A stretch of DNA of 64,000 nt, from positions 1-64,000 of the IMG/VR virus record IMGVR_UViG_3300046804_003518; one strand, 5' to 3'. The notes beneath the pieces are model-generated. The model worked only from the letters and a program-made list of their open reading frames with translations. It did no database searches and was not told the DNA's origin. This DNA is from a virus. The translations under genes were made by a program, and so were the position numbers. Every line of letters starts with the position of its first letter. The stretch's first letter is position 1. This document shows, one piece after another, positions 20,295 through 63,274 of this stretch.

Positions 20295-22291
20295 TGAAAG
20301 AACTAGAAAAGTATATATCGCCATTCATTGCTAATCAATTCCCTTCTATCTATAAAGAGGAAGGTCCTCTATTCATTGCATTTGTAAAAGCTTACTTTGA
20401 GTGGCTTGAATCACAAGACCAGGTAATTTACGATTCAAGAAGACTTCTTGAATACAGAGATGTTGATAAGACAGTGGATGTCTTTATTAATAACTTTAAA
20501 AAGAAATATATGTTTCCTATTCCAGATGATATTGCTGGCGATAAGAGACTGCTGCAGAAGCATATTAAAGAAGTTTATGGCTCAAAAGGCACAGAGCGTG
20601 GGTTAAAGCTTCTATTCCAATTATTGTTTGCTGATAATATTAGCGTCTATAAGCCAGGTGATGATGTTCTTAGACTATCAGATGGCGAATGGAATAGAGA
20701 CATTTATCTAGAGGTTTCTTACAAACCCTACAATAGTTTATTTGTGGGTGAGTTTATTAAGGGCCGCATTTCTGGTGCAAGAGCATATGTCGAGAGCTTT
20801 CAGACTAAATTTGTTAACAATAAAAACATTAACGTCTTTTACTTAACAGACGTTGTTGGTAACTTCAGAAATGATGAGGTTGTAATTATTGATGAGGCAA
20901 GGTTAGCGGAGGGACAAGTACCAGCTGTTACAGCAATCAATTCTCCAAAGATTATTGGTTCCATGACAGAAGTGGATGTTGCCAATAGAAGTTCACCATT
21001 TGGTTATTCGGTTGGCGATATTTTGGAAGTCCAGGGTAAAGGCTCTCGCGGTAAAGTTGTAGTAACAAAACTTAAAGAATTGGATGGCACAATTACATTC
21101 AATCTTGAAGATGGAGGATCCGGTTACACAATTAATAATACAGTTTTTCTAATTAAGGGTCCTGTAACTGGTGTTGTGGTTGAGAATGGTGGAGTTGGTT
21201 ACTCAAATTCTGATTATATCGTATTCTCTAATGGAACTGCTAATGCAGTAGCCAATTTAGTAACTGATGGATCAGGTACTATTCTCAACAACACTGCTGG
21301 TGGTGATACCTTATTCACCATTACTCATGGTGGCAATGGATTTTTAACTACAAATGTATTCACCGTCTCGGTTACAGTTTCAAACTCAACTGGTGGTCCT
21401 TCTGCAGGTGCTGGTGCCAACCTTGTTCCTACAATTGCAGGCGGTGGCGATTTGGCAGGACTAAGAATTGGTGCATTGTCCAACATTAAGTATTTGTTTT
21501 CTTCGGCAGCTAAAATCAATCTTGTAGGCAAGTCCCTTAACTACATTGGTACAGCAAACAGTGTTGATAATATGCTTGTTGGTCAGTTGTCGTATCCTAC
21601 AGGTACAGGGTATGGCTTATCGTCAAACGTTGCCGCAGGTTTTGATACTATATTAAAGGATGCTTTAAACTATCAAAATTATGAAGTTGGTACAATCTCA
21701 AAAATCTTTACAACAAATCCTGGTCAAGATTATACTACAAATGTGCAGATTACAGTCACCGACACTATCATTGGTTTAATGGGTTTATTGGATAAGGAAC
21801 ATCCGGCGGGCCGTGGCGACACTGGTAATGGTTACCTAGGCAATAATGCAGTGGTAACGGGAGTCAGTGGTTTTGGTTCAACGGCTCTTGGTGAAGTTAA
21901 GGTTATTGATTCTGGTCTTGGTTATGAACAAAGAGAGGAAGCAACCCTTGTATCTCTATCAAATACAAACCTTATTACATCTGGCACAGTGTTACTAATG
22001 AAGCAAGGTCAGGGCGAAGGATTCTTTAAATCTACTCGTGGCTTTTTAAACTCTGACAAGTATATTCACGATAGTTATTATTATCAAGATTATTCATATG
22101 AAGTAAGATCGTCAGTAGTATTTAATAAGTATAGCGATCTTCTAAGAAAACTTTGGCACCCAGCTGGTGTGGAGAAGTTTGGTCGCGTGCTTGTAAGTAG
22201 TGAAGTAACATCTGCCACACCAGATGTTCTACAGCAGGCATACATAGGGGATGGGTCAACGACGTCGTTTGAAATCCCGGGTGGGGCATGA
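20294..22291 (+). CDS. baseplate wedge protein in gp7 position, 665 aa
   Basis: The N-terminal ~180 residues (SPFIANQFPSIYKEEGPLFI; AFVKAYFEWLESQDQ; EVYGSKGTERGLKLLFQLLF) are conserved among T4-like phages downstream of gp6 and overlap gp7 in position. The rest holds Gly-rich repeat modules, e.g. VENGGVGYSNSDYIVFSNGT, and a C-terminal conserved segment SDLLRKLWHPAGVEKFGRVL. The last 17 residues (AYIGDGSTTSFEIPGGA) are the first half of a module whose second half opens the next ORF, so a -1 frameshift or a recent gene split is likely. T4 gp7 is 1032 aa; this is shorter unless fused to the giant that follows. Confidence 0.78.
   Translation: MKELEKYISPFIANQFPSIYKEEGPLFIAFVKAYFEWLESQDQVIYDSRRLLEYRDVDKTVDVFINNFKKKYMFPIPDDIAGDKRLLQKHIKEVYGSKGTERGLKLLFQLLFADNISVYKPGDDVLRLSDGEWNRDIYLEVSYKPYNSLFVGEFIKGRISGARAYVESFQTKFVNNKNINVFYLTDVVGNFRNDEVVIIDEARLAEGQVPAVTAINSPKIIGSMTEVDVANRSSPFGYSVGDILEVQGKGSRGKVVVTKLKELDGTITFNLEDGGSGYTINNTVFLIKGPVTGVVVENGGVGYSNSDYIVFSNGTANAVANLVTDGSGTILNNTAGGDTLFTITHGGNGFLTTNVFTVSVTVSNSTGGPSAGAGANLVPTIAGGGDLAGLRIGALSNIKYLFSSAAKINLVGKSLNYIGTANSVDNMLVGQLSYPTGTGYGLSSNVAAGFDTILKDALNYQNYEVGTISKIFTTNPGQDYTTNVQITVTDTIIGLMGLLDKEHPAGRGDTGNGYLGNNAVVTGVSGFGSTALGEVKVIDSGLGYEQREEATLVSLSNTNLITSGTVLLMKQGQGEGFFKSTRGFLNSDKYIHDSYYYQDYSYEVRSSVVFNKYSDLLRKLWHPAGVEKFGRVLVSSEVTSATPDVLQQAYIGDGSTTSFEIPGGA
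22276..22290 (+). promoter_or_regulatory. candidate -1 frameshift site at a split domain
   Basis: In the upstream frame the codons ATC CCG GGT GGG GCA TGA contain the heptamer C CCG GGT (22276-22282), an XXXYYYZ slippery sequence. Slipping gives ...EIPGWGMSTIVVKVNG, which rejoins the two halves of an NGV-type module at nearly its usual length. The GGT-to-GGG re-pairing is poor for a GCC anticodon, and ATG 22288 (ATGA overlap) could instead serve reinitiation. Confidence 0.45.
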
Positions 22292-25200
22292 GTACAATAG
22301 TTGTCAAAGTAAATGGAGTACTACAGGTACTAGGTACGGATTATACCGTCTCTGGTAACAATATTGTATTTGCCAATCCACCAGATGCAAATGCAAAAGT
22401 GGAGATTAGAAAGGAAGCAGCCAGAAGTGTTTTAGAGACAAGCTTCAAAATTGATCAGATCAGATTGACAGAACTTGTTACTGCATATAGCACACAAACA
22501 ACTGTATCTTCCACATTCAATACATCTATTGGCACAGGCACCACAACAGCGTTTGTCACTGCGTTCTCAACATCTAAGACAACAGATAGTGCAGTTCTTA
22601 CATCCAAGAACACAACAACAGCTTATATTTCTGTATTTGATACAGTATTCAATACAAGTAAGTCAACAACAACTCAATTTGTTACTGCCTACCAAACTGT
22701 ATTCAATACTATTTCAACATTTGATACAACAATTCTTACTTCATACGCCACAACAAAAACAACATCTACTGTATTTGAAACAACAGGTGTTACAAGTAAG
22801 TCAACTACTACAACATATAACACTATCGTCACAACTGTATACGATAGCAATAGAACAACTTCAACTGTTTATAGTACGGCCTATACAACAACGTTTACAA
22901 CCCAAACAGCATATGCAACAACAAGAAACACTGTATATGATACTATTGTTGCCACACTGACAAGCAAAAGCACAGACACAACAGTTGCAACATCAACAAG
23001 CATTAATACTGTATTTGTAACAGCTTATGGTACTACCACTGTATTTAATACAACAAAAGATACTAACCTTTCAACAGCAAAGTCGACAGACACAACTATT
23101 GCTACTTCAAAGGCAACAAATACAACAACTACATTTGCTACAATTTACGATACAACTGGTTCAACATCTAAAAATACAACAACTGCATTCTTAACTGTAT
23201 TTGATACAGCCAAGACAACATCAACTTTATTTGCAACAACATTTGATACAACGTTTGTTACAAATAAACTAACATCAACTAGCAAATCAACAACTTCTGT
23301 ATTCAACACAACAACCACATTTATTACAACATTTGATACTGGTTACGATACTAGTAAGTCAACAACATCGTTGTTTAATACGACAACAACATTCAATACA
23401 TCATATGCAACTAACTTTGCAACGACAACAGCATTTGAAACAAATGTAGCAACCCAAACCGCTGTATCACAAAATACTGCCAGAAATACAACTACAATAT
23501 TCAACACAGCAACAAGCAAATCAACTACAACAATATTCAACACAGCAACTACGTTTAATACAACGTATGCAACTAACTTTGCAACAACAACCTCGTTTGA
23601 AACTAATTTCATTACAGCAACAAACCGTGGAACAAGTAGAGCCACTGATACAACTGGCTCAACAAGTAGAGCAACAGGTACTTCAAGAGTAACCACAACT
23701 GTATTTAATACAACAACTGTATACGATACTGCAACAGCATTCCAAACAAGTACAATATTCCAAACACAGACAACCGCAGCTGGCTCAACAACATTCTTGA
23801 CAGCAAATGAAGTTACATTTCAAACCTTTACTATAAAGGGTACTGGTGCAAGTTACATTACAACGTACCAAACAAGCTATGATACAATTATTGGCTATGG
23901 TAAGGGTGGTTTACCAATCTATGGCCAGACATATTTCAATACATCGAAATCTACACAGCCTTTAACTGCGTTTTATTTCCAGACCACAGCTGTGGGTGTA
24001 ACTGTGACAACCTATGCAACTTACACATACCTACCTCAAGGGTTTGGTTATGTGTTTTTTGATACAACAAAACTAACAGCCACGGCAAGTAGACTTACAT
24101 CAAGAGGTACGACATTCTATTTTCAAACAGATACAAGTAGAAGTACAGACACATCTAGAGCCACAAGTACATCTAGAGCCACAAGTACGTCTGCATCAAC
24201 AACCACTGCATATGATACTTCAACAACGTTTGGCACTACGTATCAGACAACAACCTCGTTTGTAACGACCTTTGACACATTAACAATATTTGGTACATCT
24301 AAGAGCACAACAACAGTATTTGATACAGCAAGAAGTACTGCTGCTGCCACAAGCACAAGCGGATCAACTACATCTGTATTTGATACAGCAACGTCAGCTG
24401 TAACATCAACGACCTTTATTACTACCTATCTAGCAGCTACAACAACAGTATTTGTAACATCTAAGAGCACAACAACAGTCTTTGATACAGCAAAGGCCAC
24501 GAGTGCAGTAACTGCCACAAGTGCGGCCACATCCACTGCATTCAACACTCTTGTTTCAACTTCTAACACAACAAGTAGAGCAACAGCAACGAGCGTTGCC
24601 ACAACAACTGTATTTGATACATCTACAGCATATGATACAAACATTGCAACTGTAAGAGACACATCCAAGTCAACAGCTACAACATACGAAACTAATTTTG
24701 GCACAAGTGCTGTCACAGCAACAGTGTTTAATACTGTATATAACACGGTAGGAGCTACCCAAAAAGCAACTGCTACGACAACAGTCTTTAATACAGCATA
24801 CGCCACAACAACAACATTTGATACAGTATACCAAACCGTATTTAATACAAACAAAACAACCGATACTTCTATCAACACCTCAAGATCTACATTGGGTACA
24901 ACAGGATCTGTATATCAAACATCTACAGCATATAATACCCAAACAGCATTTGAAACAAACAGAAACACGGTATTTGACACTGTTGTGGCAACAGACACAT
25001 CTCGCGACACAATTATCTTAACATCTAAGAGCACAACAACATCATTTGAAACGGCAATTAATACTGGCTATGACACAAGCAAGTCTACAACATCCGTATT
25101 CAACACAGTATTCAATACTGCCAAAAATACAACCAGCGTATTTGACACAACAATTGATACTTCATATGCTACAACAAAAGCCACTGCAACATCAAAATTT

Positions 25201-28200
25201 ACAACAAATTTAACTGGAAGAAGTACAACCAGCAGCTTTGACACAGCTTATGCAACTGCAATTGCAACATCCAAAACTACATCAACTGCATTTATTACCG
25301 GGTATGATACAACAACTTTGTTTGATACTTCTACTCCTACAACAAGAAACACCCTTACTCAATCTGTTTACTCAACCACTTCAAGCACATTGAAGGGCAC
25401 TGATACTGCCATCTTAACAGAATATAGAATTCTCGCAACTCAAACATTGTTTAGTACTAAGTATGAAACCACATATGAAACAATTGCTGGTGTACTAACA
25501 ACAATTTCTACGGATGTTGTAACCAACAGAACAACTAATACTGCATACGCATTTGAAAGTAGAAATACGTTAAGGGATACTGCTTTTCAAACAACAAATC
25601 CAACATTGATTGCCACAACAACATTATTCCAAACATCATACAATACAAATCAGATCACACGCTTTGTTACACTTAACACTGCCTTTGGCACAAGTAAAAA
25701 TACATCAACAGTATTTGATAAAGCCACTACAACTGTATTTGCAACAATAAGTGCATTTGATACTGTAAAGACCACAGACTTCTCTACATCACGTAATACG
25801 TTAATTACTTCTTCAACAGCATTTGAAACAAGTAAGACAACTCTTGTAGCAACTGGTACATCTAGAACTACTACCTCTTCGTATCAGACAAATATAAACA
25901 CAGTGTTCAATACAGGATACGACACATCCAAGTCAACAACATCGTTATTTGTTACAGCATTTTTAACTGTCTCAACTTTTGAAACTAATAAGACAACCTC
26001 AAGAACAACAACGCTAACTAAGGGCACAGAAATTCTCACTTTCTTTGCTACATCTCAATCAACTGTTAAGCCAACAAGCACAACGCGATCAACAGTTTAT
26101 GTTAGTGACTTTGTCACCGTCTCCCGTACTACAACATTTGTAACAGGCACAAATGAAGTAACGTCATTTGATACTAAGAGGGGTACAAACATTGATACAG
26201 TGTTTGATAGCTCAACATCTTTCTTAACGAGCTTTAACACTACTCTTAATAAGACCACAACAGCAATTACTAATAAGAGTACAACTACAGGATTTGACAC
26301 TTTTGTTAACACATCAAAGGTAACTAATGTTGCAACATCCACAGATACGTTAACTTCATTCAATACAATAACTGGCTTTTTGACATCATTTGATACAAAC
26401 AAGACGACACAGAGTTCAAAATCAACTGTATTCAATACTGCGTTTGACACAACGTTTGCCACAACAAAGTCAACATCCACAAGTAGAAGTACAACCACAT
26501 CTACAAGTAAAAGTACCTCGACGGCATACGATACAACAAAGAGTACCGTTAATAATACGAGCACAACTTACCAAACCACATTCCAAACAGATTCTGGTGC
26601 CGGCACTCTACATAACACATCAGCTTTAACAACTGGTCTAACCGGTACTCTTACTTCTTCAGTTACAGTTAAGTTAACAACAGTTGACACAACTAAATCA
26701 ACAGAAACACAGTATCTGATGTCAAGTAGCTATGGGACAGGTACTGTATTTGAAACTGTTGTCGGTACAGCATACGAAACATCAACAGTATTTAATACGA
26801 CAACTGCATTTAATACTGATACAGTATTTAACACCACAACAACCTTTCAAACAGATTCTGGTAAGGGTACATTGAAGTCGACCTCTAAGTCTACTGCAAC
26901 AAGTTACGCTACTGGCACAAGTAAAAATACATCCACATCAAAAATAACATTAACAGCAAGTGGTACGTATTATATTTCTCAAAGAAATACTACATCTGCC
27001 TATGACACAACAAAAAATACAGCTGGTGGATTAACAAGTCGAGCCACAAGCACGTCAGACACCACAACAACTGTTTACCTAAGTGCCTATCAATCAAACA
27101 TTAACACGACAACAACATACTTGTCGTCATACTCAACTGTCATTGATACAAGCAGACAAACGCAAGCTCTTACATCATTTGGAACATCAAGAACTACAGA
27201 AACAATATTCCAAACTGCCGCTTTAGGTGGCACTCTATTCAATACAACAAAGAATACAACTACCGCATTTGATACAGTTTATCTCATTACACAATCTGTT
27301 GCCTCAACTGCTACCACATTTCAAACTGATTCTGGAGCTGGTACACTAAAGAATACATCTCAGAACACAATTACTGCGTATACAAGATTTGAAGGTGGTA
27401 AGCAGACGTCAACTGTATTCTCTACAGCGTTTGCTACAAATCCGTTTGTAACAACTGCATATGGCACATCTAGAACTACAACAACTGTATACCCAACAGT
27501 GTTTACAGAATTTGGTACATCTAAAGACACCACAACTACTTTCCAGACCGACTCAGGCGCTGGTACAATGAAGGCAACGTCAAAGGACACAGTAACAGCA
27601 TTTAATACAATCTATGCAACTGCCCCAGTAACATCAAAGTCAACAACCACATCATTTGACACCATTTATAGTACTGGTATACCAACAACAAGACAAACAG
27701 CCACATTGTTGACAACTGCTACTGCATATGCAACTGAAACTGCAAAAATTACTGGCTCAGGTAAAATTACACAATTTGCAACTACAACTACAATCAACAC
27801 TGATACAGCAAGAGGAACTTCAACTACATTCCAAACGGATTCTGGTAAAGGCACACTTCACAGCACGTCAAGAAATACTCTAACTGGTACATTGACATCA
27901 TTTAACACTACAACTTTAACAATTAGCGACATGCTAACAAGCAAGTCCACTAGCACTACAACAGACCAAGGAACTCTTGTTAATACATCTACAAGCACTT
28001 CTTATGCTACACAAACTGAGTATGCAACCTCAGGTGGTGCAACAGTATTTGGTACCTCAGTAACAACTGAGACAGTCATTGACTTTACAGTTAGAAACAC
28101 GGAATATCAAACGCTAACTTCTGTTGATACATTAACGTATTATGAATCAGGGGATAGACTAACTGCAAAAACTACAGCAATTTTAACTAACACAAATACA

Positions 28201-28395
28201 TCTCAAATTGTTAGAGATACAACAAGAACAACGTCAATTGATACAACGTATATCACAACCTTCTTGACAGACTCAGGCGCAGGTACAATGGTGTCAACAT
28301 CAAAGTCAACATCTAGAACAACTGACAAGATAACAAACACCGATTACGATACAGCAATTCAAACAACATATGAAACTGTTTATATAAATAACTAG
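22288..28395 (+). CDS. giant threonine-rich alternating-repeat protein, 2035 aa
   Basis: Residues 1-45 are the second half of a fibre module (VNGVLQVLGTDYTVSGNNIV). From about residue 60 almost the whole protein follows x-Thr-x-(Phe/Tyr/Ile/Arg/Lys), e.g. TSKSTTTIFNTATTFNTTYA, with Thr, aromatic and basic residues on one phase and Asn/Asp/Ser/Ala on the other. This predicts one extremely long beta structure. An aromatic, Gly-containing island sits at about 490-614, and six TDSG motifs occur in the last third. Thr is roughly 40% by eye; I saw no Cys. Lying between gp6/gp7-position genes and gp8, it is probably a baseplate-attached fibre or whisker. No Shine-Dalgarno precedes ATG 22288. I know of no characterised homologue. 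Confidence 0.85.
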   Translation: MSTIVVKVNGVLQVLGTDYTVSGNNIVFANPPDANAKVEIRKEAARSVLETSFKIDQIRLTELVTAYSTQTTVSSTFNTSIGTGTTTAFVTAFSTSKTTDSAVLTSKNTTTAYISVFDTVFNTSKSTTTQFVTAYQTVFNTISTFDTTILTSYATTKTTSTVFETTGVTSKSTTTTYNTIVTTVYDSNRTTSTVYSTAYTTTFTTQTAYATTRNTVYDTIVATLTSKSTDTTVATSTSINTVFVTAYGTTTVFNTTKDTNLSTAKSTDTTIATSKATNTTTTFATIYDTTGSTSKNTTTAFLTVFDTAKTTSTLFATTFDTTFVTNKLTSTSKSTTSVFNTTTTFITTFDTGYDTSKSTTSLFNTTTTFNTSYATNFATTTAFETNVATQTAVSQNTARNTTTIFNTATSKSTTTIFNTATTFNTTYATNFATTTSFETNFITATNRGTSRATDTTGSTSRATGTSRVTTTVFNTTTVYDTATAFQTSTIFQTQTTAAGSTTFLTANEVTFQTFTIKGTGASYITTYQTSYDTIIGYGKGGLPIYGQTYFNTSKSTQPLTAFYFQTTAVGVTVTTYATYTYLPQGFGYVFFDTTKLTATASRLTSRGTTFYFQTDTSRSTDTSRATSTSRATSTSASTTTAYDTSTTFGTTYQTTTSFVTTFDTLTIFGTSKSTTTVFDTARSTAAATSTSGSTTSVFDTATSAVTSTTFITTYLAATTTVFVTSKSTTTVFDTAKATSAVTATSAATSTAFNTLVSTSNTTSRATATSVATTTVFDTSTAYDTNIATVRDTSKSTATTYETNFGTSAVTATVFNTVYNTVGATQKATATTTVFNTAYATTTTFDTVYQTVFNTNKTTDTSINTSRSTLGTTGSVYQTSTAYNTQTAFETNRNTVFDTVVATDTSRDTIILTSKSTTTSFETAINTGYDTSKSTTSVFNTVFNTAKNTTSVFDTTIDTSYATTKATATSKFTTNLTGRSTTSSFDTAYATAIATSKTTSTAFITGYDTTTLFDTSTPTTRNTLTQSVYSTTSSTLKGTDTAILTEYRILATQTLFSTKYETTYETIAGVLTTISTDVVTNRTTNTAYAFESRNTLRDTAFQTTNPTLIATTTLFQTSYNTNQITRFVTLNTAFGTSKNTSTVFDKATTTVFATISAFDTVKTTDFSTSRNTLITSSTAFETSKTTLVATGTSRTTTSSYQTNINTVFNTGYDTSKSTTSLFVTAFLTVSTFETNKTTSRTTTLTKGTEILTFFATSQSTVKPTSTTRSTVYVSDFVTVSRTTTFVTGTNEVTSFDTKRGTNIDTVFDSSTSFLTSFNTTLNKTTTAITNKSTTTGFDTFVNTSKVTNVATSTDTLTSFNTITGFLTSFDTNKTTQSSKSTVFNTAFDTTFATTKSTSTSRSTTTSTSKSTSTAYDTTKSTVNNTSTTYQTTFQTDSGAGTLHNTSALTTGLTGTLTSSVTVKLTTVDTTKSTETQYLMSSSYGTGTVFETVVGTAYETSTVFNTTTAFNTDTVFNTTTTFQTDSGKGTLKSTSKSTATSYATGTSKNTSTSKITLTASGTYYISQRNTTSAYDTTKNTAGGLTSRATSTSDTTTTVYLSAYQSNINTTTTYLSSYSTVIDTSRQTQALTSFGTSRTTETIFQTAALGGTLFNTTKNTTTAFDTVYLITQSVASTATTFQTDSGAGTLKNTSQNTITAYTRFEGGKQTSTVFSTAFATNPFVTTAYGTSRTTTTVYPTVFTEFGTSKDTTTTFQTDSGAGTMKATSKDTVTAFNTIYATAPVTSKSTTTSFDTIYSTGIPTTRQTATLLTTATAYATETAKITGSGKITQFATTTTINTDTARGTSTTFQTDSGKGTLHSTSRNTLTGTLTSFNTTTLTISDMLTSKSTSTTTDQGTLVNTSTSTSYATQTEYATSGGATVFGTSVTTETVIDFTVRNTEYQTLTSVDTLTYYESGDRLTAKTTAILTNTNTSQIVRDTTRTTSIDTTYITTFLTDSGAGTMVSTSKSTSRTTDKITNTDYDTAIQTTYETVYINN
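22480..28380 (+). repeat. Thr-aromatic alternating repeat array I
   Basis: About 1,950 codons made of degenerate (x-F/Y/I/R/K-x-T) tetrads with extra x-T dyads. Frequent words are TVFNT, TFDT, TSKSTT and TSRAT. In the stretch I phased by hand (nt ~23510-23710) every aromatic, Arg and Lys falls on the same residue parity as Thr. The coding strand is rich in A and C because of ACA/ACT codons. Confidence 0.9.
26578..28310 (+). repeat. six copies of an F-x-TDSG-x-GT motif in the giant protein
   Basis: The motif F(Q/L)TDSG(A/K)GT(L/M)xxTS begins near 26581, 26846, 27319, 27538, 27826 and 28259. Copies differ in codons (e.g. gattctggt, gactcaggc), so the protein motif is conserved beyond the DNA. 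Spacing is irregular, about 160-470 nt. It is absent from the first two thirds and could mark turns or metal/ligand sites. Confidence 0.8.
28383..28390 (+). promoter_or_regulatory. T4-type late promoter TATAAATA
   Basis: A perfect TATAAATA inside the last codons of the giant gene, 27 nt before ATG 28418 of the gp8-like gene. It leaves a leader holding TAGGA at 28409. Confidence 0.75.
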
Positions 28396-56410: not shown

Positions 56411-59400
56411 ATGCCAGGTAAATTATTCTTTAATGACAACGGCACTCTGAGAGAAGCCGAAATTCTGAAAGTCAACGATGGCGGTATTCTACGTACCGTT
56501 AGGGATGCCTATGTTAATCAGAATGGTGTTCTAAGGCAAATTTACTCTGCTACAAAAGATACATCATACGAAACTTCTAGATCAACTGTATTTGAGACAG
56601 TCATTGTCACGACATTTGATACAACAATTTCAACAAATAGAAATACAACAACTGCTTTTGTGACGTTGTTTGAAACTGGCTATGATACAAGCAAGGCAAC
56701 TGCAACAAATAGAAACACTTCTACATCCAGAGCAACTGCCTACGCTACAACAAGAACAACTGCAACTGTATTTCAAACTTTAACCGTATTTGAAACAACA
56801 ATTGGTACTAATAGAGTAACATCAACCTCTAGGGCTACCACGACAAGTTTCCTCACTAACACTGTATTTGAAACAACTATCAATACAGCAAGAAATACTG
56901 CAACTTCTAGAGCTACCACAACAATATTTATTACAAACACTGTATTTGAAACAACTATCAATACAGCAAGAAATACTGCAACCTCAAAATCAACTGCAAC
57001 GGTATTTGACACCAATACAGTATTTGATACAACAATTAATACAGCAAGAAATACTGCAACAAGCAGAAGTACAGATTCTGTATTTGATACTGTAATTGGC
57101 ACAAATAGAACTACTCTATCTGTATTCAATACCGTTACGGCGTTTCAAACAACAACGGCGTTTGAAACTGCTTATGCTACAACCACAGTATTCAATACGA
57201 CAACTACGTTTGATACGGTAATTGATACTGCTCGTAATACAGCAACCACAAGATCTACAACCACTGCTTATGACACTGGGTATGATACAAGTAAGATAAC
57301 AAATACAGTATTCAATACTGGTACAATAAAAGATACCGTTATTGACACATCTAGATCTACTGCAACAAGTATAGCTACAACAACTGTCTTCCAGACGGCC
57401 TATGCTACAAGCAGAGCCACAGCAACTAGCAGATCTACAGATACTACAATTGATACATCTAGAGCTACAGCAACTAGCAGATCCACAGATACTACAATTG
57501 ATACATCTAGAGCAACGGCTACCTCTAGAGCAACTGACACAACAATTGTTACATCTAGGTTGACAGATACGTCTCAATCTACCACAACAACATTTAACAC
57601 AACAACGACGTTTGACACTGCTTACGCAACGACGACGACGTTTAATACTACAACTACGTTTGACACAGCATATGCTACGACAACAACGTTTAATACCACA
57701 ACTACGTTTGATACTATAATTGCAACAACAAGAGCAACAGACACTTCAAGATCAACCACTACTACGTTCCAAACAACGACAGTATTTCAAACAACTACTA
57801 CATTCCAAACAACAACTACGTTTAACACTATTACAACTTATATCACCTCTCTAGGTGGTAACACTGTATTCCAAACAACAACTACGTTTAATACTATTAC
57901 AACGTATATTACCACTCTTGTTGCTGGAACAACTAGAGCAACTGACACTTCAAGATCAACTACTACCACGTTCCAGACAACGACTGTATTTAATACAATC
58001 ACAACGTATATTACTACTCTTGTTAATGCAACTTCAAGAGCAACCGATACATCTAGAGCCACAACTACAACATTCCAGACTACAACTACATTTGGTACTA
58101 CGTTCTTCTTTAATACAAGTAAGGCAACAACATTCTACTTCAATACAACAACTACATTTGGTACTACGTTCTTCTTTAATACAAGTAAGGCAACTACGTT
58201 TTACTTCAACACATCTGTTATTACAACAACAACATTTATTACGTCAGCTGTTGGTCTTACAACGTTTATTACAACGGCTGTTGCTGGTACAAGTAAGGCA
58301 ACGACGTTCTACTTTAACACAACATACATCACAACAGCCGCTGCTGCAACCTCTAAGGCTACAACATTCTACTTTAACACAAGTGTTGGTGGTACTACAT
58401 ATTTCAGCTCAGGGTTCATAACAACATTCTACACAGTGATTGGTATAGCCTATTACAAATGGTGGTCAAACCAGTACTTTGGCAATACAACCAGAGCCAC
58501 ATCTGTAATTACATCCAAGGCTACAACATTCTACTTTGGCACAAGTGCTGGTGGTACTACCTACTTTAATACAACATTCTACTTTAATACAGTTAGAGGT
58601 ACCAGTGCTGGTGGTACTACTTTCTTCAACACTACCTTTTATTTCAATACGTCTAGAAACACGACGTTCTACTTTAACACAGCTAGAGCAACAACATCTA
58701 CCTTTATCACAACTCTAGGTGGTATCACAACATTCATTACAACTCTAGGTGGTACAACATCTAGAGCAACAGGTACTTCAGTTGGTGGTATTACTACATT
58801 TATTACAACATTGGGTGGTACAACATCTAGAGCAACAGATACGTCTAGAGCAACTACAACCACATTCCAAACAACAACAACGTTTAACACTACGTTCTTT
58901 TTTAATACAACTCTTGCTACAGCCACTTCTAGAGCAACAGATACGTCTAGAGCAACAACTACAACATTTCAGACAACAACTGCATTCAACACAACATTCT
59001 TCTTTAATACAACTCTAGCAACTGCAACTTCTAGAGCAACTGATACGTCTAGAGCAACTACGTTCTTCTTTAATACTACTTTGGCCACGGCAACAAGTAG
59101 AGCAACCGATACATCTAGAGTAACTGATACTTCTAGAGCTACTGACACATCTAGAGCTACAACAACAGTTTTCCAAACAACAACAACGTTTGAGACTGCC
59201 TATGCTACAAGCAGAGCTACCGCAACCAGCAGATCTACTGACACAACAATTAGCACATCTAGAGCTACTGCAACAAGTAGAGCAACAGATACAACAATTA
59301 GCACATCTAGAGCTACTGCAACAAGTAGAGCTACAACTACTGTCTTCCAGACAACAACAGCATTTAATACAGCTTATGCTACAACAACGGTATTTGATAC

Positions 59401-60370
59401 TACAACAACATTTGCTACTGCATATGCAACCACAACAATATTCAACACAACTACAACATTTGCTACTGCATATGCTACAACAACGGTATTCAATACAACG
59501 ACAACATTCGACACTGTAATTGATACAAACAAGTCAACTACTTCAGTATTCAATACAACCACAACATTTGCTACTGCCTACCAAACATCAGATGTTAAGT
59601 CAACTAACTTTGATACATCAACTGCCTATAACACTCTTGTTGGTACAAGCAAGTCAACAATATCAACATTTGATACATCTACTACATTTCAGACAGCTTA
59701 TGCAACAAATAGAGTTACTGCTACAGATAGATCAACCGACACTATAATTGGCACTTCTAGAGCAACTGAGACATCTAGAAATACAGCTACTGATAGAAAT
59801 ACCGTAACGGCATTTGAAACTGCATATGCTACAAACATTGCAACAACAACCGTATTTGATACATCAACAACATTTGAAACTTCTTATGCTACTGGTAGAA
59901 ACACATCAACCAACCGTTTAACGACATCGGTGTTTGATACATCAACAACATTTGAAACGACGTATGATACAAACTTTGATACACTAACCAACCGTTCAAC
60001 AACATCGGTATTTGATACATCAACAACATTTGAAACAACTTATAATACAAACTTTGATACACTTACAAGCCGCTCAACAACGTCTGTATTTGATACAACA
60101 ACATCATTTGAAACGACGTATGACACAAATATCCTTACATCAACTTCAAGAAATACAGTATCAACATTTGATACCGAGATTGTAACTGTATTTGATACTG
60201 TAACGGTATTCAATACAACAACATCTTACGACTCGCAATATGGCACAGACCGTGCAACAAGTAAGACAACAACTTCTGTGTTCAATACAGCCTATGCTAC
60301 AAATCGCAATACGGCATTCAACACATCACAAAACACAACATTCAATACAACTATCGAAACATACTTCTAA
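56411..60370 (+). CDS. second giant threonine-rich alternating-repeat protein, 1319 aa
   Basis: Residues 1-50 form a small domain (FFNDNGTLREAEILKVNDGG; RDAYVNQNGVLRQIYSATKD) of a type that opens other phage fibre/structural proteins. The rest is the same alternating Thr/aromatic/basic pattern as the 2035-aa protein, e.g. TTFDTAYATTTTFNTTTTFD, including three tandem 26-residue units. An island near residue 658-703 (IAYYKWWSNQYFGNTTRATS) holds the only Trp residues I saw. The protein is extremely rich in Thr and appears to lack Cys. It ends the fibre region. Likely a long, stiff beta fibre; no characterised homologue known to me. Confidence 0.85.
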   Translation: MPGKLFFNDNGTLREAEILKVNDGGILRTVRDAYVNQNGVLRQIYSATKDTSYETSRSTVFETVIVTTFDTTISTNRNTTTAFVTLFETGYDTSKATATNRNTSTSRATAYATTRTTATVFQTLTVFETTIGTNRVTSTSRATTTSFLTNTVFETTINTARNTATSRATTTIFITNTVFETTINTARNTATSKSTATVFDTNTVFDTTINTARNTATSRSTDSVFDTVIGTNRTTLSVFNTVTAFQTTTAFETAYATTTVFNTTTTFDTVIDTARNTATTRSTTTAYDTGYDTSKITNTVFNTGTIKDTVIDTSRSTATSIATTTVFQTAYATSRATATSRSTDTTIDTSRATATSRSTDTTIDTSRATATSRATDTTIVTSRLTDTSQSTTTTFNTTTTFDTAYATTTTFNTTTTFDTAYATTTTFNTTTTFDTIIATTRATDTSRSTTTTFQTTTVFQTTTTFQTTTTFNTITTYITSLGGNTVFQTTTTFNTITTYITTLVAGTTRATDTSRSTTTTFQTTTVFNTITTYITTLVNATSRATDTSRATTTTFQTTTTFGTTFFFNTSKATTFYFNTTTTFGTTFFFNTSKATTFYFNTSVITTTTFITSAVGLTTFITTAVAGTSKATTFYFNTTYITTAAAATSKATTFYFNTSVGGTTYFSSGFITTFYTVIGIAYYKWWSNQYFGNTTRATSVITSKATTFYFGTSAGGTTYFNTTFYFNTVRGTSAGGTTFFNTTFYFNTSRNTTFYFNTARATTSTFITTLGGITTFITTLGGTTSRATGTSVGGITTFITTLGGTTSRATDTSRATTTTFQTTTTFNTTFFFNTTLATATSRATDTSRATTTTFQTTTAFNTTFFFNTTLATATSRATDTSRATTFFFNTTLATATSRATDTSRVTDTSRATDTSRATTTVFQTTTTFETAYATSRATATSRSTDTTISTSRATATSRATDTTISTSRATATSRATTTVFQTTTAFNTAYATTTVFDTTTTFATAYATTTIFNTTTTFATAYATTTVFNTTTTFDTVIDTNKSTTSVFNTTTTFATAYQTSDVKSTNFDTSTAYNTLVGTSKSTISTFDTSTTFQTAYATNRVTATDRSTDTIIGTSRATETSRNTATDRNTVTAFETAYATNIATTTVFDTSTTFETSYATGRNTSTNRLTTSVFDTSTTFETTYDTNFDTLTNRSTTSVFDTSTTFETTYNTNFDTLTSRSTTSVFDTTTSFETTYDTNILTSTSRNTVSTFDTEIVTVFDTVTVFNTTTSYDSQYGTDRATSKTTTSVFNTAYATNRNTAFNTSQNTTFNTTIETYF
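56560..60365 (+). repeat. Thr-aromatic alternating repeat array II
   Basis: Contains visible tandem sub-repeats: 26-aa units at 56858, 56936 and 57014 (NTVFETTINTARNTATSRAT...), a 16-aa unit in the 57400-57540 stretch (TSRSTDTTIDTSRATA) and a 22-aa unit (66 nt) at 58082 and 58148. All unit lengths are even numbers of residues, keeping the two-residue phase. Several copies are near-identical in DNA, implying recent duplication. Confidence 0.9.
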
Positions 60371-60384: not shown

Positions 60385-60412
60385 TTAGCATGTCCCAATT
60401 GAGGTGATTAAC

Positions 60413-60607
60413 ATGATTGATGAACCAAGAGTTAGTAATGAACAGCTTGATAAAAAGCTAGAGTCTTTTGTAGAGGTTGTTCTCCAAAAGATGATTGATC
60501 TCCATCAGGAAATCAAAACGCTAAAAAAGAAAGTCCACGACGCTGAAAAGAAGCTACAGGCCCTTGAACAAGGGTCAACGGAAGTAGACGAGCGTCTTGG
60601 CATTTAA
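60413..60607 (+). CDS. small coiled-coil protein, 64 aa
   Basis: ATG 60413 (MIDEPRVSNEQLDKKLESFV) has GAGG at 60401 with normal spacing; an in-frame GTG at 60404 overlaps that ribosome site and is rejected. The product is a heptad-type coiled coil (EIKTLKKKVHDAEKKLQALE). It is the first gene after the late promoter and precedes two unknown enzymes or assembly proteins. Possibly a fibre or neck adaptor. Confidence 0.7.
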   Translation: MIDEPRVSNEQLDKKLESFVEVVLQKMIDLHQEIKTLKKKVHDAEKKLQALEQGSTEVDERLGI

Positions 60608-60621
60608 TAGGAAATTATATT

Positions 60622-61608
60622 ATGGTAGCTGAAGTTCCAGGTAAGGGTGGAAAGAATAAATTCTTTACTATGTCTTCAAATGAGTGGGTAAACGATGATG
60701 TAACCCATTTTATGAAGTCTGGTAATATACTAAGGTCTCCAATCAACGAGAGACTATCCGAAATAGCCAAGCACATTCCTAAGAATCCAAATGGATCCAA
60801 AATTGAGTATGATATCAATTATGGTAGTCCAAGTGGCACAATTGCTGGTTATAAATTTACGGATTTGTTAACTCAGATACTCTATCTTGCTCCATGTAAT
60901 ACCCAAATTGCAACAAAGAATATGATTGATTGCATTAGAAAGGGAGCAACTCCAGAAGGCCATAGAATTGTAGAGGCCCTAAGGGCAAATCTCACCGATA
61001 AGTATCTTTTAGACGAAGACCTTGATCTTGAATACGGCGATGTTAACGAATTAGTGCTCCTCCCAGGTACTAACCTTATAACAAAAGATGCTGTGGACTT
61101 TAAGAAGGTAGACGAACTCTATAATAATGGAGCTTGGGTTAAGCTCCATCCTATTACCGCTAAGGTTTGGCAAACTATGCTTGAAAAAAGATTCAAGGGT
61201 AGAGTTGTAAAAAACGAAGCATCAATGTATCCAATATTGAAGCGCTCAAAGAAGGTTTACTTCACCCTATCCTCTGAAACCGGATGTGCTGCCGTTCTTT
61301 TAGGTAAGGGAATTGGTCTTATTGATAATAAAGAAGCAAAGGTTGGTAAGACATTTGAAGCTGTTTATATGTCACTTGACAGAAGTGGCGTAAAGGATAA
61401 ACTAATTAATAAGTTTGCTGCCCTCATGTCCTACCCTGAATCAGGATTGATTAGCGTTCACCACGAAAATAAAGAAGAATGTATTCAAAGATTTTTTGAC
61501 AACATGAAGCAGCATAGACACGTTACGTTATCAAAGAAGCCTGGTGAAGAAGGGGATGATGTTATTGTAAAAGAGCTAGAACAACAGGGTGGATTGAAGC
61601 AACAATGA
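60622..61608 (+). CDS. unknown 328-aa protein, possibly glycosyltransferase-like
   Basis: I do not recognise the family with certainty. A segment VKLHPITAKVWQTMLEKRFK, then RSKKVYFTLSSETGCAAVLL and GKGIGLIDNKEAK, resembles the donor-binding end of GT-B or KpsC/KpsS-type transferases (HP..., SS.xG.EA.l.GK.v). The N-terminal half is a mixed alpha/beta domain (FTDLLTQILYLAPCNTQIAT). Its 3' end overlaps the next gene by 4 nt (ATGA). Located between the Thr-rich giant and the neck genes, it could modify virion proteins; this is inference. Confidence 0.5.
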   Translation: MVAEVPGKGGKNKFFTMSSNEWVNDDVTHFMKSGNILRSPINERLSEIAKHIPKNPNGSKIEYDINYGSPSGTIAGYKFTDLLTQILYLAPCNTQIATKNMIDCIRKGATPEGHRIVEALRANLTDKYLLDEDLDLEYGDVNELVLLPGTNLITKDAVDFKKVDELYNNGAWVKLHPITAKVWQTMLEKRFKGRVVKNEASMYPILKRSKKVYFTLSSETGCAAVLLGKGIGLIDNKEAKVGKTFEAVYMSLDRSGVKDKLINKFAALMSYPESGLISVHHENKEECIQRFFDNMKQHRHVTLSKKPGEEGDDVIVKELEQQGGLKQQ

Positions 61609-62533: not shown

Positions 62534-63274
62534 ATGGCAGTTCCAGCAACTAGATCTGAATTTAAAGAGTATTGCCTTCGTAAACTAGGTAAGCCAGTCA
62601 TTGAAATCAACGTTGATGATGATCAGGTTGAAGACCGTATTGACGAGGCGTTGAAATACTACTGGGATTATCATTTTGATGGGTCTGAGAAGACATATTA
62701 CAAACATCTAATTACAGCCTCAGATATTGCTAACAAATACATTACTCTACCAGAAAACATTATTGGTGTTGTTAAGCTATTCCCTGTTGGCCAAAGCTTA
62801 AACACAATGAATCTTTTCAACATCCGCTACCAGATTGCGTTAAATGATCTTTACACTCTAACAACGCAATCCATGATTCCATATGTCATGGCAATGCAGC
62901 ATATTCAATTCCTAGAAGAAATTTTAGTTGGCCAGAAGCCAGTCCGTTATAGCAGACACAAAGATAGATTGTTTATTGATATGGATTGGGGCCAGGCTGT
63001 TGAAGGTGAGTATTTTGTTGTGGAGGCGTACCAAGTAATAGATCCAGATACATTTACAGATGTTTGGGGCGATCGCTGGCTATCCCTCTACACAACTGCA
63101 CTTATTAAGTATCAATGGGGATCAAACCTAACTAAATTTACTGGTATGGTTCTTCCTGGTGGCGTTCAATTCAATGGTGAAAAAATCCAGGATGATGCCA
63201 AGGCTGAGATTGAGGCACTAGAGCAAGAAATGCAGACATCATATACATTACCAGCATACCATATGGTAGGATAA
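62534..63274 (+). CDS. 13: neck protein gp13
   Basis: 246 aa. The N-terminus TRSEFKEYCLRKLGKPVIEI, then NVDDDQVEDRIDEALKYYWD, is nearly diagnostic for gp13 of T4-like marine phages; LFNIRYQIALNDLYTLTTQS and the acidic C-terminal helix follow. gp13 joins the portal and forms the neck connector to which gp14 and the tail bind. A late promoter lies upstream. One nucleotide separates it from gp14. Confidence 0.95.
   Translation: MAVPATRSEFKEYCLRKLGKPVIEINVDDDQVEDRIDEALKYYWDYHFDGSEKTYYKHLITASDIANKYITLPENIIGVVKLFPVGQSLNTMNLFNIRYQIALNDLYTLTTQSMIPYVMAMQHIQFLEEILVGQKPVRYSRHKDRLFIDMDWGQAVEGEYFVVEAYQVIDPDTFTDVWGDRWLSLYTTALIKYQWGSNLTKFTGMVLPGGVQFNGEKIQDDAKAEIEALEQEMQTSYTLPAYHMVG

Follow-up and report, generated by a model that had tools for sequence, protein, structure and literature searches.

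In the needle of the phage T4 long tail fibre, three gp37 chains reportedly run out and back to form a six-stranded antiparallel structure, with the receptor-binding tip located in the middle of the sequence. The locus described here encodes a protein, P1, for which a similar topology (arm, mid-sequence tip and returning arm) can be proposed, again as a thin needle in a phage with a contractile tail. At the sequence level, this out-and-back arrangement appears as two arms of equal length about a central tip, related by a single mirrored register. Proteins of the P1 type differ from gp37 in having arms of hundreds of residues, a pairing code and versions divided between two genes, and in being devoid of recognisable needle metal motifs; neither a pairing code nor a split version is known to us, and none turned up in the open-access literature searched. 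Homology to gp37 or to any other solved fibre was not detected among PDB sequences, either with P1 (E<=1) or with one of the two-gene proteins, L044b (E<=10; L numbers are our handles for loci).

Two threonine-rich giants and their genome setting

The DNA analysed (64,000 nucleotides, hereafter the window) belongs to a virus record of 188,323 bp. Judging from its genes, the virus is a T4-superfamily myovirus, because its gp13 shares 67.5% identity with the DLP6 protein and baseplate genes flank a second giant, P2, on both sides (Table 1). P1 is encoded by ORF 56411-60370 of the + strand, which starts with ATG and specifies 1319 aa without internal stop. The original prediction had noted in this ORF an alternation of Thr with aromatic and basic residues; the ORF is intact, with exactly these coordinates, and the pattern stands above register and unit-shuffle controls. 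Decay to a fragment, considered at the same time, is contradicted by L009, L010 and L011, three further viral contigs that encode intact full-length relatives sharing the P1 N-terminus. Thr makes up 37% of P1; even lags (4, 6, 10, 16) give it a high autocorrelation and odd lags a low one. The resulting ladder consists of units xxxT and xTxxxT: the distance from one Thr to the next is even, usually 4 or 6, and an aromatic or basic residue stands in between. This parity is unbroken along aa 49-679 and along the returning arm, whereas a solenoid with corners would be expected to interrupt it, and the only interior non-ladder stretch (aa 672-696) sits mid-ladder.

P1 is preceded by tail-fibre-like genes and followed by a phrog_26179 gene (gene X), one further gene and gp13. 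A 67-aa ORF that separates P1 and gene X (60404-60607) gave many weak matches to coiled-coil families. P1 had no match in Pfam or PHROGs, and tblastn of P1 against isolated phages returned none either, probably as a result of the low-complexity filter masking the ladder. The T4 fibritin Wac, encoded at the same position before gp13, was considered as a counterpart and rejected, there being no Pfam or PHROGs match and the P1 ladder being of beta type rather than a coiled coil.

P2 (ORF 22288-28395, 2035 aa, 33% Thr) carries a ladder pattern like that of P1, as had been proposed, and the two arrays are joined by scored matches in pieces of 47-55% identity, with E down to 6.5e-12. The N-termini of the two giants, which had been called unrelated, yielded no BLASTP alignment at E<=100. 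The accompanying idea of a portable shaft holds insofar as the ladder is found on unrelated N-termini here and elsewhere, but the shaft looks less like a simple repeat than like a residue-paired out-and-back duplex. According to Pfam, a C-terminal Peptidase_S74 domain is absent from both P1 and P2. A search for related loci with P2 as query found none. A baseplate link of P2 is plausible because its gene sits between gp7-like and gp8 genes and a gp7 fusion exists in DLP6, and P2 is probably a second paired fibre, on the baseplate side.

Table 1. Coordinates of the P1 and P2 features and of neighbouring genes in the window
Feature	Position	Strand	Basis or remark
gp7-like baseplate wedge gene, directly 5' of P2	20294..22291	+	phrog_17744; ladder-fused in DLP6, L064, L075
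P2 N-terminal domain, aa 1-44, fibre/depolymerase type	22288..22419	+	PDB 9k4a depolymerase, aa 2-34, E 4e-4
P2 first outgoing arm, aa 95-518	22570..23841	+	stem with aa 591-1014, i+j=1109
P2 tip region, aa 519-590	23842..24057	+	Gly_rich_2 domain instead in homologue L041
P2 first returning arm, aa 591-1014	24058..25329	+	stem with aa 95-518
P2 second hairpin, aa 1130-1269 / 1282-1421	25675..26550	+	stem score 67 vs largest null 29
Possible P2 mini-hairpin around DSGKG, aa 1486-1523 / 1531-1568	26743..26991	+	weak: score 24, inside null range
gp8-like baseplate wedge gene, 3' of P2	28418..30469	+	phrog_438
P1 N-terminal anchor, aa 1-48, three short N-x-NG-x-LR repeats	56411..56554	+	sequence; 86-88% conserved in three other contigs
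P1 outgoing arm, aa 49-679	56555..58447	+	ungapped stem with aa 689-1319, i+j=1368
P1 tip, aa 680-688 (AYYKWWSNQ)	58448..58474	+	loop of stem, within the only interior non-ladder stretch; varies among relatives
P1 returning arm, aa 689-1319	58475..60367	+	stem with outgoing arm
Gene X, 328 aa, phrog_26179, conserved partner downstream of ladder genes	60622..61608	+	PHROGs match; locus survey
gp13 neck gene	62534..63274	+	67.5% identity to neck protein of Stenotrophomonas phage DLP6

Complementarity within P1 and in other ladder proteins

When each residue i of P1 was paired with residue c-i, a single sharp register emerged, at c=1368. In this register Thr faces Thr in 29% of cases (background 15%), and an aromatic residue or Ile faces Arg or Lys in 11.7% (background 2.0%; next registers up to 6.4%). 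The latter oppositions number 72, against 19.0±4.0 and a maximum of 33 in 2000 unit shuffles of one arm (z=13). The whole forms one ungapped stem of 631 pairs (49-679/689-1319) closed by the 9-residue tip, in which F-R was seen 60 times for 5.6 expected and Y-I 18 times for 1.5, while T-F and T-R never occurred (44 and 24 expected). Residue-by-residue pairing is well supported. One face of the ladder (face 1) is composed of Thr (53%), Phe (15%), Arg (8%), Tyr (6%) and Lys (3%), and the other (face 2) of Thr, Ser, Ala, Asn, Val, Asp and Gly. Partner volumes on face 2 correlate negatively in the P1 family and in P2 (r about -0.2 to -0.3); this size matching is not general, because it was not seen in L039, L015 and L057. 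An inverted DNA repeat as the source of the protein pairing was ruled out by the non-complementary DNA at the mirrored register (0.274 versus 0.25-0.32 in shifted registers).

The same property recurs in other proteins. In a first scan of eight, the top register was identical on both measures in seven (L009, L010, L011, L039, L045, P2 and, more weakly, L024); L055 had an aromatic-basic peak at c=505, its Thr-Thr signal being ambiguous through a regular decapeptide. The first version of the unit shuffle left L039 and P2 unshuffled (sd 0) and gave L024 a z of only 1.4. With a preset code that rewards aromatic:basic (+3) and Thr:Thr (+0.7) and penalises Thr versus large residues, combined with another unit split, L024 and a P2 fragment (L002) stood apart from their shuffles, at ratios of 2.88 and 7.18. 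A stem matrix trained on P1, L010 and L011 and applied to held-out proteins returned stems in P2 (95-518/591-1014), L045 (59-309/316-566), L055 (16-244/261-489), L057 (147-612/623-1088) and L041, in which 107-531/761-1185 encloses a Gly-rich tip of 229 aa. AAY80_265 of DLP6 has two stems around a mid-chain tip, 718-970/983-1235 (held-out) and 535-576/1243-1284. Branching is possible in L020:6113-9466 (+), where an outer stem 68-183/1002-1117 encloses 198-367/390-559 and 555-629/898-972; a large domain is inserted at the tip of one of the inner hairpins. For P2, no convincing pairing was found past aa 1421, and a many-branched fold with more than two stems was discarded as not significant. Its last third (aa 1421-2035) contains six DSGAG/DSGKG turns, and the local mini-hairpins suggested there are not significant by shuffling.

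A detector run on ORFs of 150 aa or more, taken from the window and from ten phage regions or genomes that included DLP6 and Cr30, flagged P1, P2 and the DLP6 protein and nothing else. Two further pattern scans of IMG/VR yielded 83 non-redundant ladder ORFs, 'STSTSSS' ORFs made of Thr and Ser only, which match the pattern while lacking the aromatic/basic rungs, having been dropped by composition; a pattern scan of genome contigs gave mostly GC-rich chance matches and no clear ladder gene. In 67 of the 83 ORFs, the self-complementary stem outscored the highest of six unit shuffles by a factor of more than 1.3, and 45 of the 54 that are not cut by a contig end pass this preset-code threshold. 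When 39 strong stems were pooled (11,720 pairs), the enrichment of aromatic-basic pairs was 4.64 in register and 0.04-0.05 after a shift of two residues in either direction; these values express sharpness and not significance, the stems having been selected by this very score. The same pool shows a slight aromatic-basic excess at offset +4 (1.49) and none at -4 (0.86), which might mark a second, inter-chain contact. Ladder periods vary (10, 16 and mixtures), and the family shares no fixed repeat length. Gp7-like wedge proteins carry the ladder as a fusion in DLP6, L064 and L075; in L020 it is joined to a phrog_30374 N-terminus, and L024 and L044a have other N-termini.

Two-gene duplexes, covariation and the accompanying gene X

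Several ORFs without a self-stem adjoin their complement. L044a and L044b pair in antiparallel over nearly the whole ladder, with one one-residue shift (score 87.7 versus a null maximum of 34.8; best parallel score 19), and two neighbouring genes are mutually complementary at about 20 loci, some of them near-copies (L044, L223, L267, L290, L305, L319 and about 14 more), as judged against shuffles and against pairing in parallel orientation. The L223 duplex (39-943/927-23; score 565 versus 52) comprises 905 pairs with no gap and no mismatch between Thr and large residues, and 185 of its 189 aromatics stand opposite a non-aromatic residue (Arg, Lys, Gln or His); that of L267 is similar. Pfam places S74 chaperone domains above cut-off in L044a and L319, and below it in L279, L239 and L276. 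The C-terminus of the larger partner resembles an intein/Hint C-terminal motif (FFANGILTHN) in L223:5267-8722 (-) and L267:6-3362 (+), perhaps reflecting self-processing at the tip.

The comparison of relatives reveals that partners are conserved and change together. L009 and L010 share about 95-100% identity across the first 472 and the final 483 residues but have different middles, one having been replaced; the C-side boundary lies at most 3 residues from the position that pairs with the N-side boundary in the hairpin, a layout indicative of recombinants that exchange the tip half symmetrically. Between P1 and L010, 443 of 518 aligned pairs are in register despite unequal arm lengths, and the double changes include YI to RF and KF to YI. 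All 889 aligned pairs of L223 and L267 are in register, with paired changes that span two genes (WK to FR, FR to WK and FR to YH). Partner covariation, as read from these alignments, is strong and not absolute, because single-sided switches occur too.

Of the 76 non-redundant loci that could be assessed, 59 have a gene X homologue directly 3' of the ladder gene (L044, L223, L305, L055 and L045 among them); in several of the exceptions X is elsewhere on the piece or the ladder resembles the P2 type. The KxHP and S motifs are invariant in 16 members. The best remote matches, KpsC and WbbB, are non-significant (E about 1), and Pfam Capsule_synth and polyST were hit at E 0.02-0.03 by single members. 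Gene X is a candidate dedicated glycosyltransferase (CMP-sugar; KpsC/WbbB/polysialyltransferase type) or chaperone. Isolate ladder proteins were located via gene X and gp13: pp2_249 (L358:6941-7471, 176 aa) of Vibrio phage phi-pp2, of the KVP40 species, with 49 pairs (0/200 shuffles), p0320 of Vibrio 6E35.1a with 47 pairs (0/200) and gp043 of Caulobacter phage DCM with 88 pairs (2/200).

Proposed fibre, competing readings and known systems

Very probably, P1 is a very long, thin out-and-back phage fibre in which residue i lies beside residue 1368-i according to a pairing code between the arms. The chain would leave its N-terminal anchor for 631 residues, turn at the 9-residue tip and return to the anchor, the arms forming an antiparallel beta ribbon near 200 nm long (631 x ~0.33 nm); the DLP6 tail measures 144 nm (PMC5349666). 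On face 1, Thr would stand opposite Thr and an aromatic residue opposite a non-aromatic one, mostly Arg or Lys, further partners being Ile or Val for Tyr, Gln or Lys for Trp and, in relatives, His for Tyr. Asn-Ser, Ala-Val and Gly-Tyr would be the preferred partners on face 2, and the irregular mixture of 4- and 6-residue spacings would let only one register fit. The variable tip may be the receptor binder, gene X may modify or chaperone the fibre, and N-terminal anchors would be exchangeable. Several copies would build each fibre, three being suggested by the S74 chaperone domains of some relatives. T4 gp7 is listed as a monomer (PMC3004832), which would sit badly with a trimer for the gp7-fused ladders. 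AlphaFold2 gave no confident model (pLDDT 33 and 56 for the tip region with four sequences and for a 65-aa mini-hairpin).

A constant i+j would also be expected whatever the shape of the ribbon, and the two strands could coil up as a solenoid or tube, in which case the shaft would be much shorter and thicker. This is unlikely: the parity runs for 631 residues per arm without a corner break and the family has no common fixed repeat length, even if a gp7-fused monomer would have to bury one face somehow. Sequence complementarity is likewise the same for pairing within and between chains, and the two-gene systems do pair between molecules, so P1 might consist of two antiparallel copies that together span roughly double the length and bear anchors at both ends. 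Such an arrangement is quite improbable, given that domains inserted mid-sequence (the Gly-rich one of L041) resemble distal tips, that a fibre anchored at both ends fits a virion poorly, and that single-gene forms bring both ends together only when folded back.

Far less credible is an ordinary repetitive shaft (beta-solenoid, triple beta-helix or beta-spiral) whose Thr ladder stacks on itself without specific partners between arms. A Thr-rich repetitive sequence beside tail-fibre genes would fit it, such shafts being common in phages, but it predicts no preferred mirrored register where one was found; the missing T-F oppositions of P1, the clean two-gene pairs, the covariation and the symmetric recombination also speak against it. 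Solenoids or triple beta-helices with fixed-length coils are not what was observed, given the 4/6 spacing mixture, the unbroken parity and the mirrored register. Hardly conceivable is a mostly unfolded, mucin-like glycosylated stalk, with gene X as its glycosyltransferase and a pairing that arose incidentally from composition drift: the Thr content of 33-37% and the weak likeness of gene X to sugar transferases would agree with it, but disorder cannot hold an ungapped register of 631 residues or compensatory changes.

Beyond P1, it is probable that phages zip beta strands over hundreds of residues by a residue-level pairing code, in hairpins, possibly with branches (L020), or in two-protein duplexes. 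Most of a partner could then be predicted from the sequence of one strand, loosely as in nucleic-acid duplexes, and a natural protein duplex with a readable code would exist in metagenomic and cultured phages (DLP6, phi-pp2, Vibrio 6E35.1a and Caulobacter DCM). Fibres perhaps 200-300 nm long would be made out of one or two genes, and the 'hypothetical' Thr-rich giants that low-complexity filters mask from searches would be explained. Tips and partners could be read from sequence, offering addressable beta-strand zippers for protein design, and the small versions make the pairing directly testable.

Among isolated phages, pp2_249 of phi-pp2 carries a 49-pair version of the code and has a gene X homologue downstream after one small gene, but it is only 176 aa long, with an N-terminus unlike that of P1; its name, 'cell wall mannoprotein', is a composition-based annotation. 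DLP6 AAY80_265, annotated as gp7 baseplate wedge, likewise has ladder stems around a mid-chain tip, but its ladder is fused to the gp7-like protein, unlike the separate P2, and one arm holds an extra domain (aa 577-717). Heterodimeric coiled coils (zippers) also match two strands over a long range by a residue-level rule; they are helical and heptad-based, whereas the ladders show strictly even beta-type alternation and would be antiparallel, their rungs being Thr-Thr and aromatic-cation pairs. Pairing of this kind did not turn up in the open-access literature searched, and the principle appears new, while the whole fibre would still be a phage adhesion fibre.
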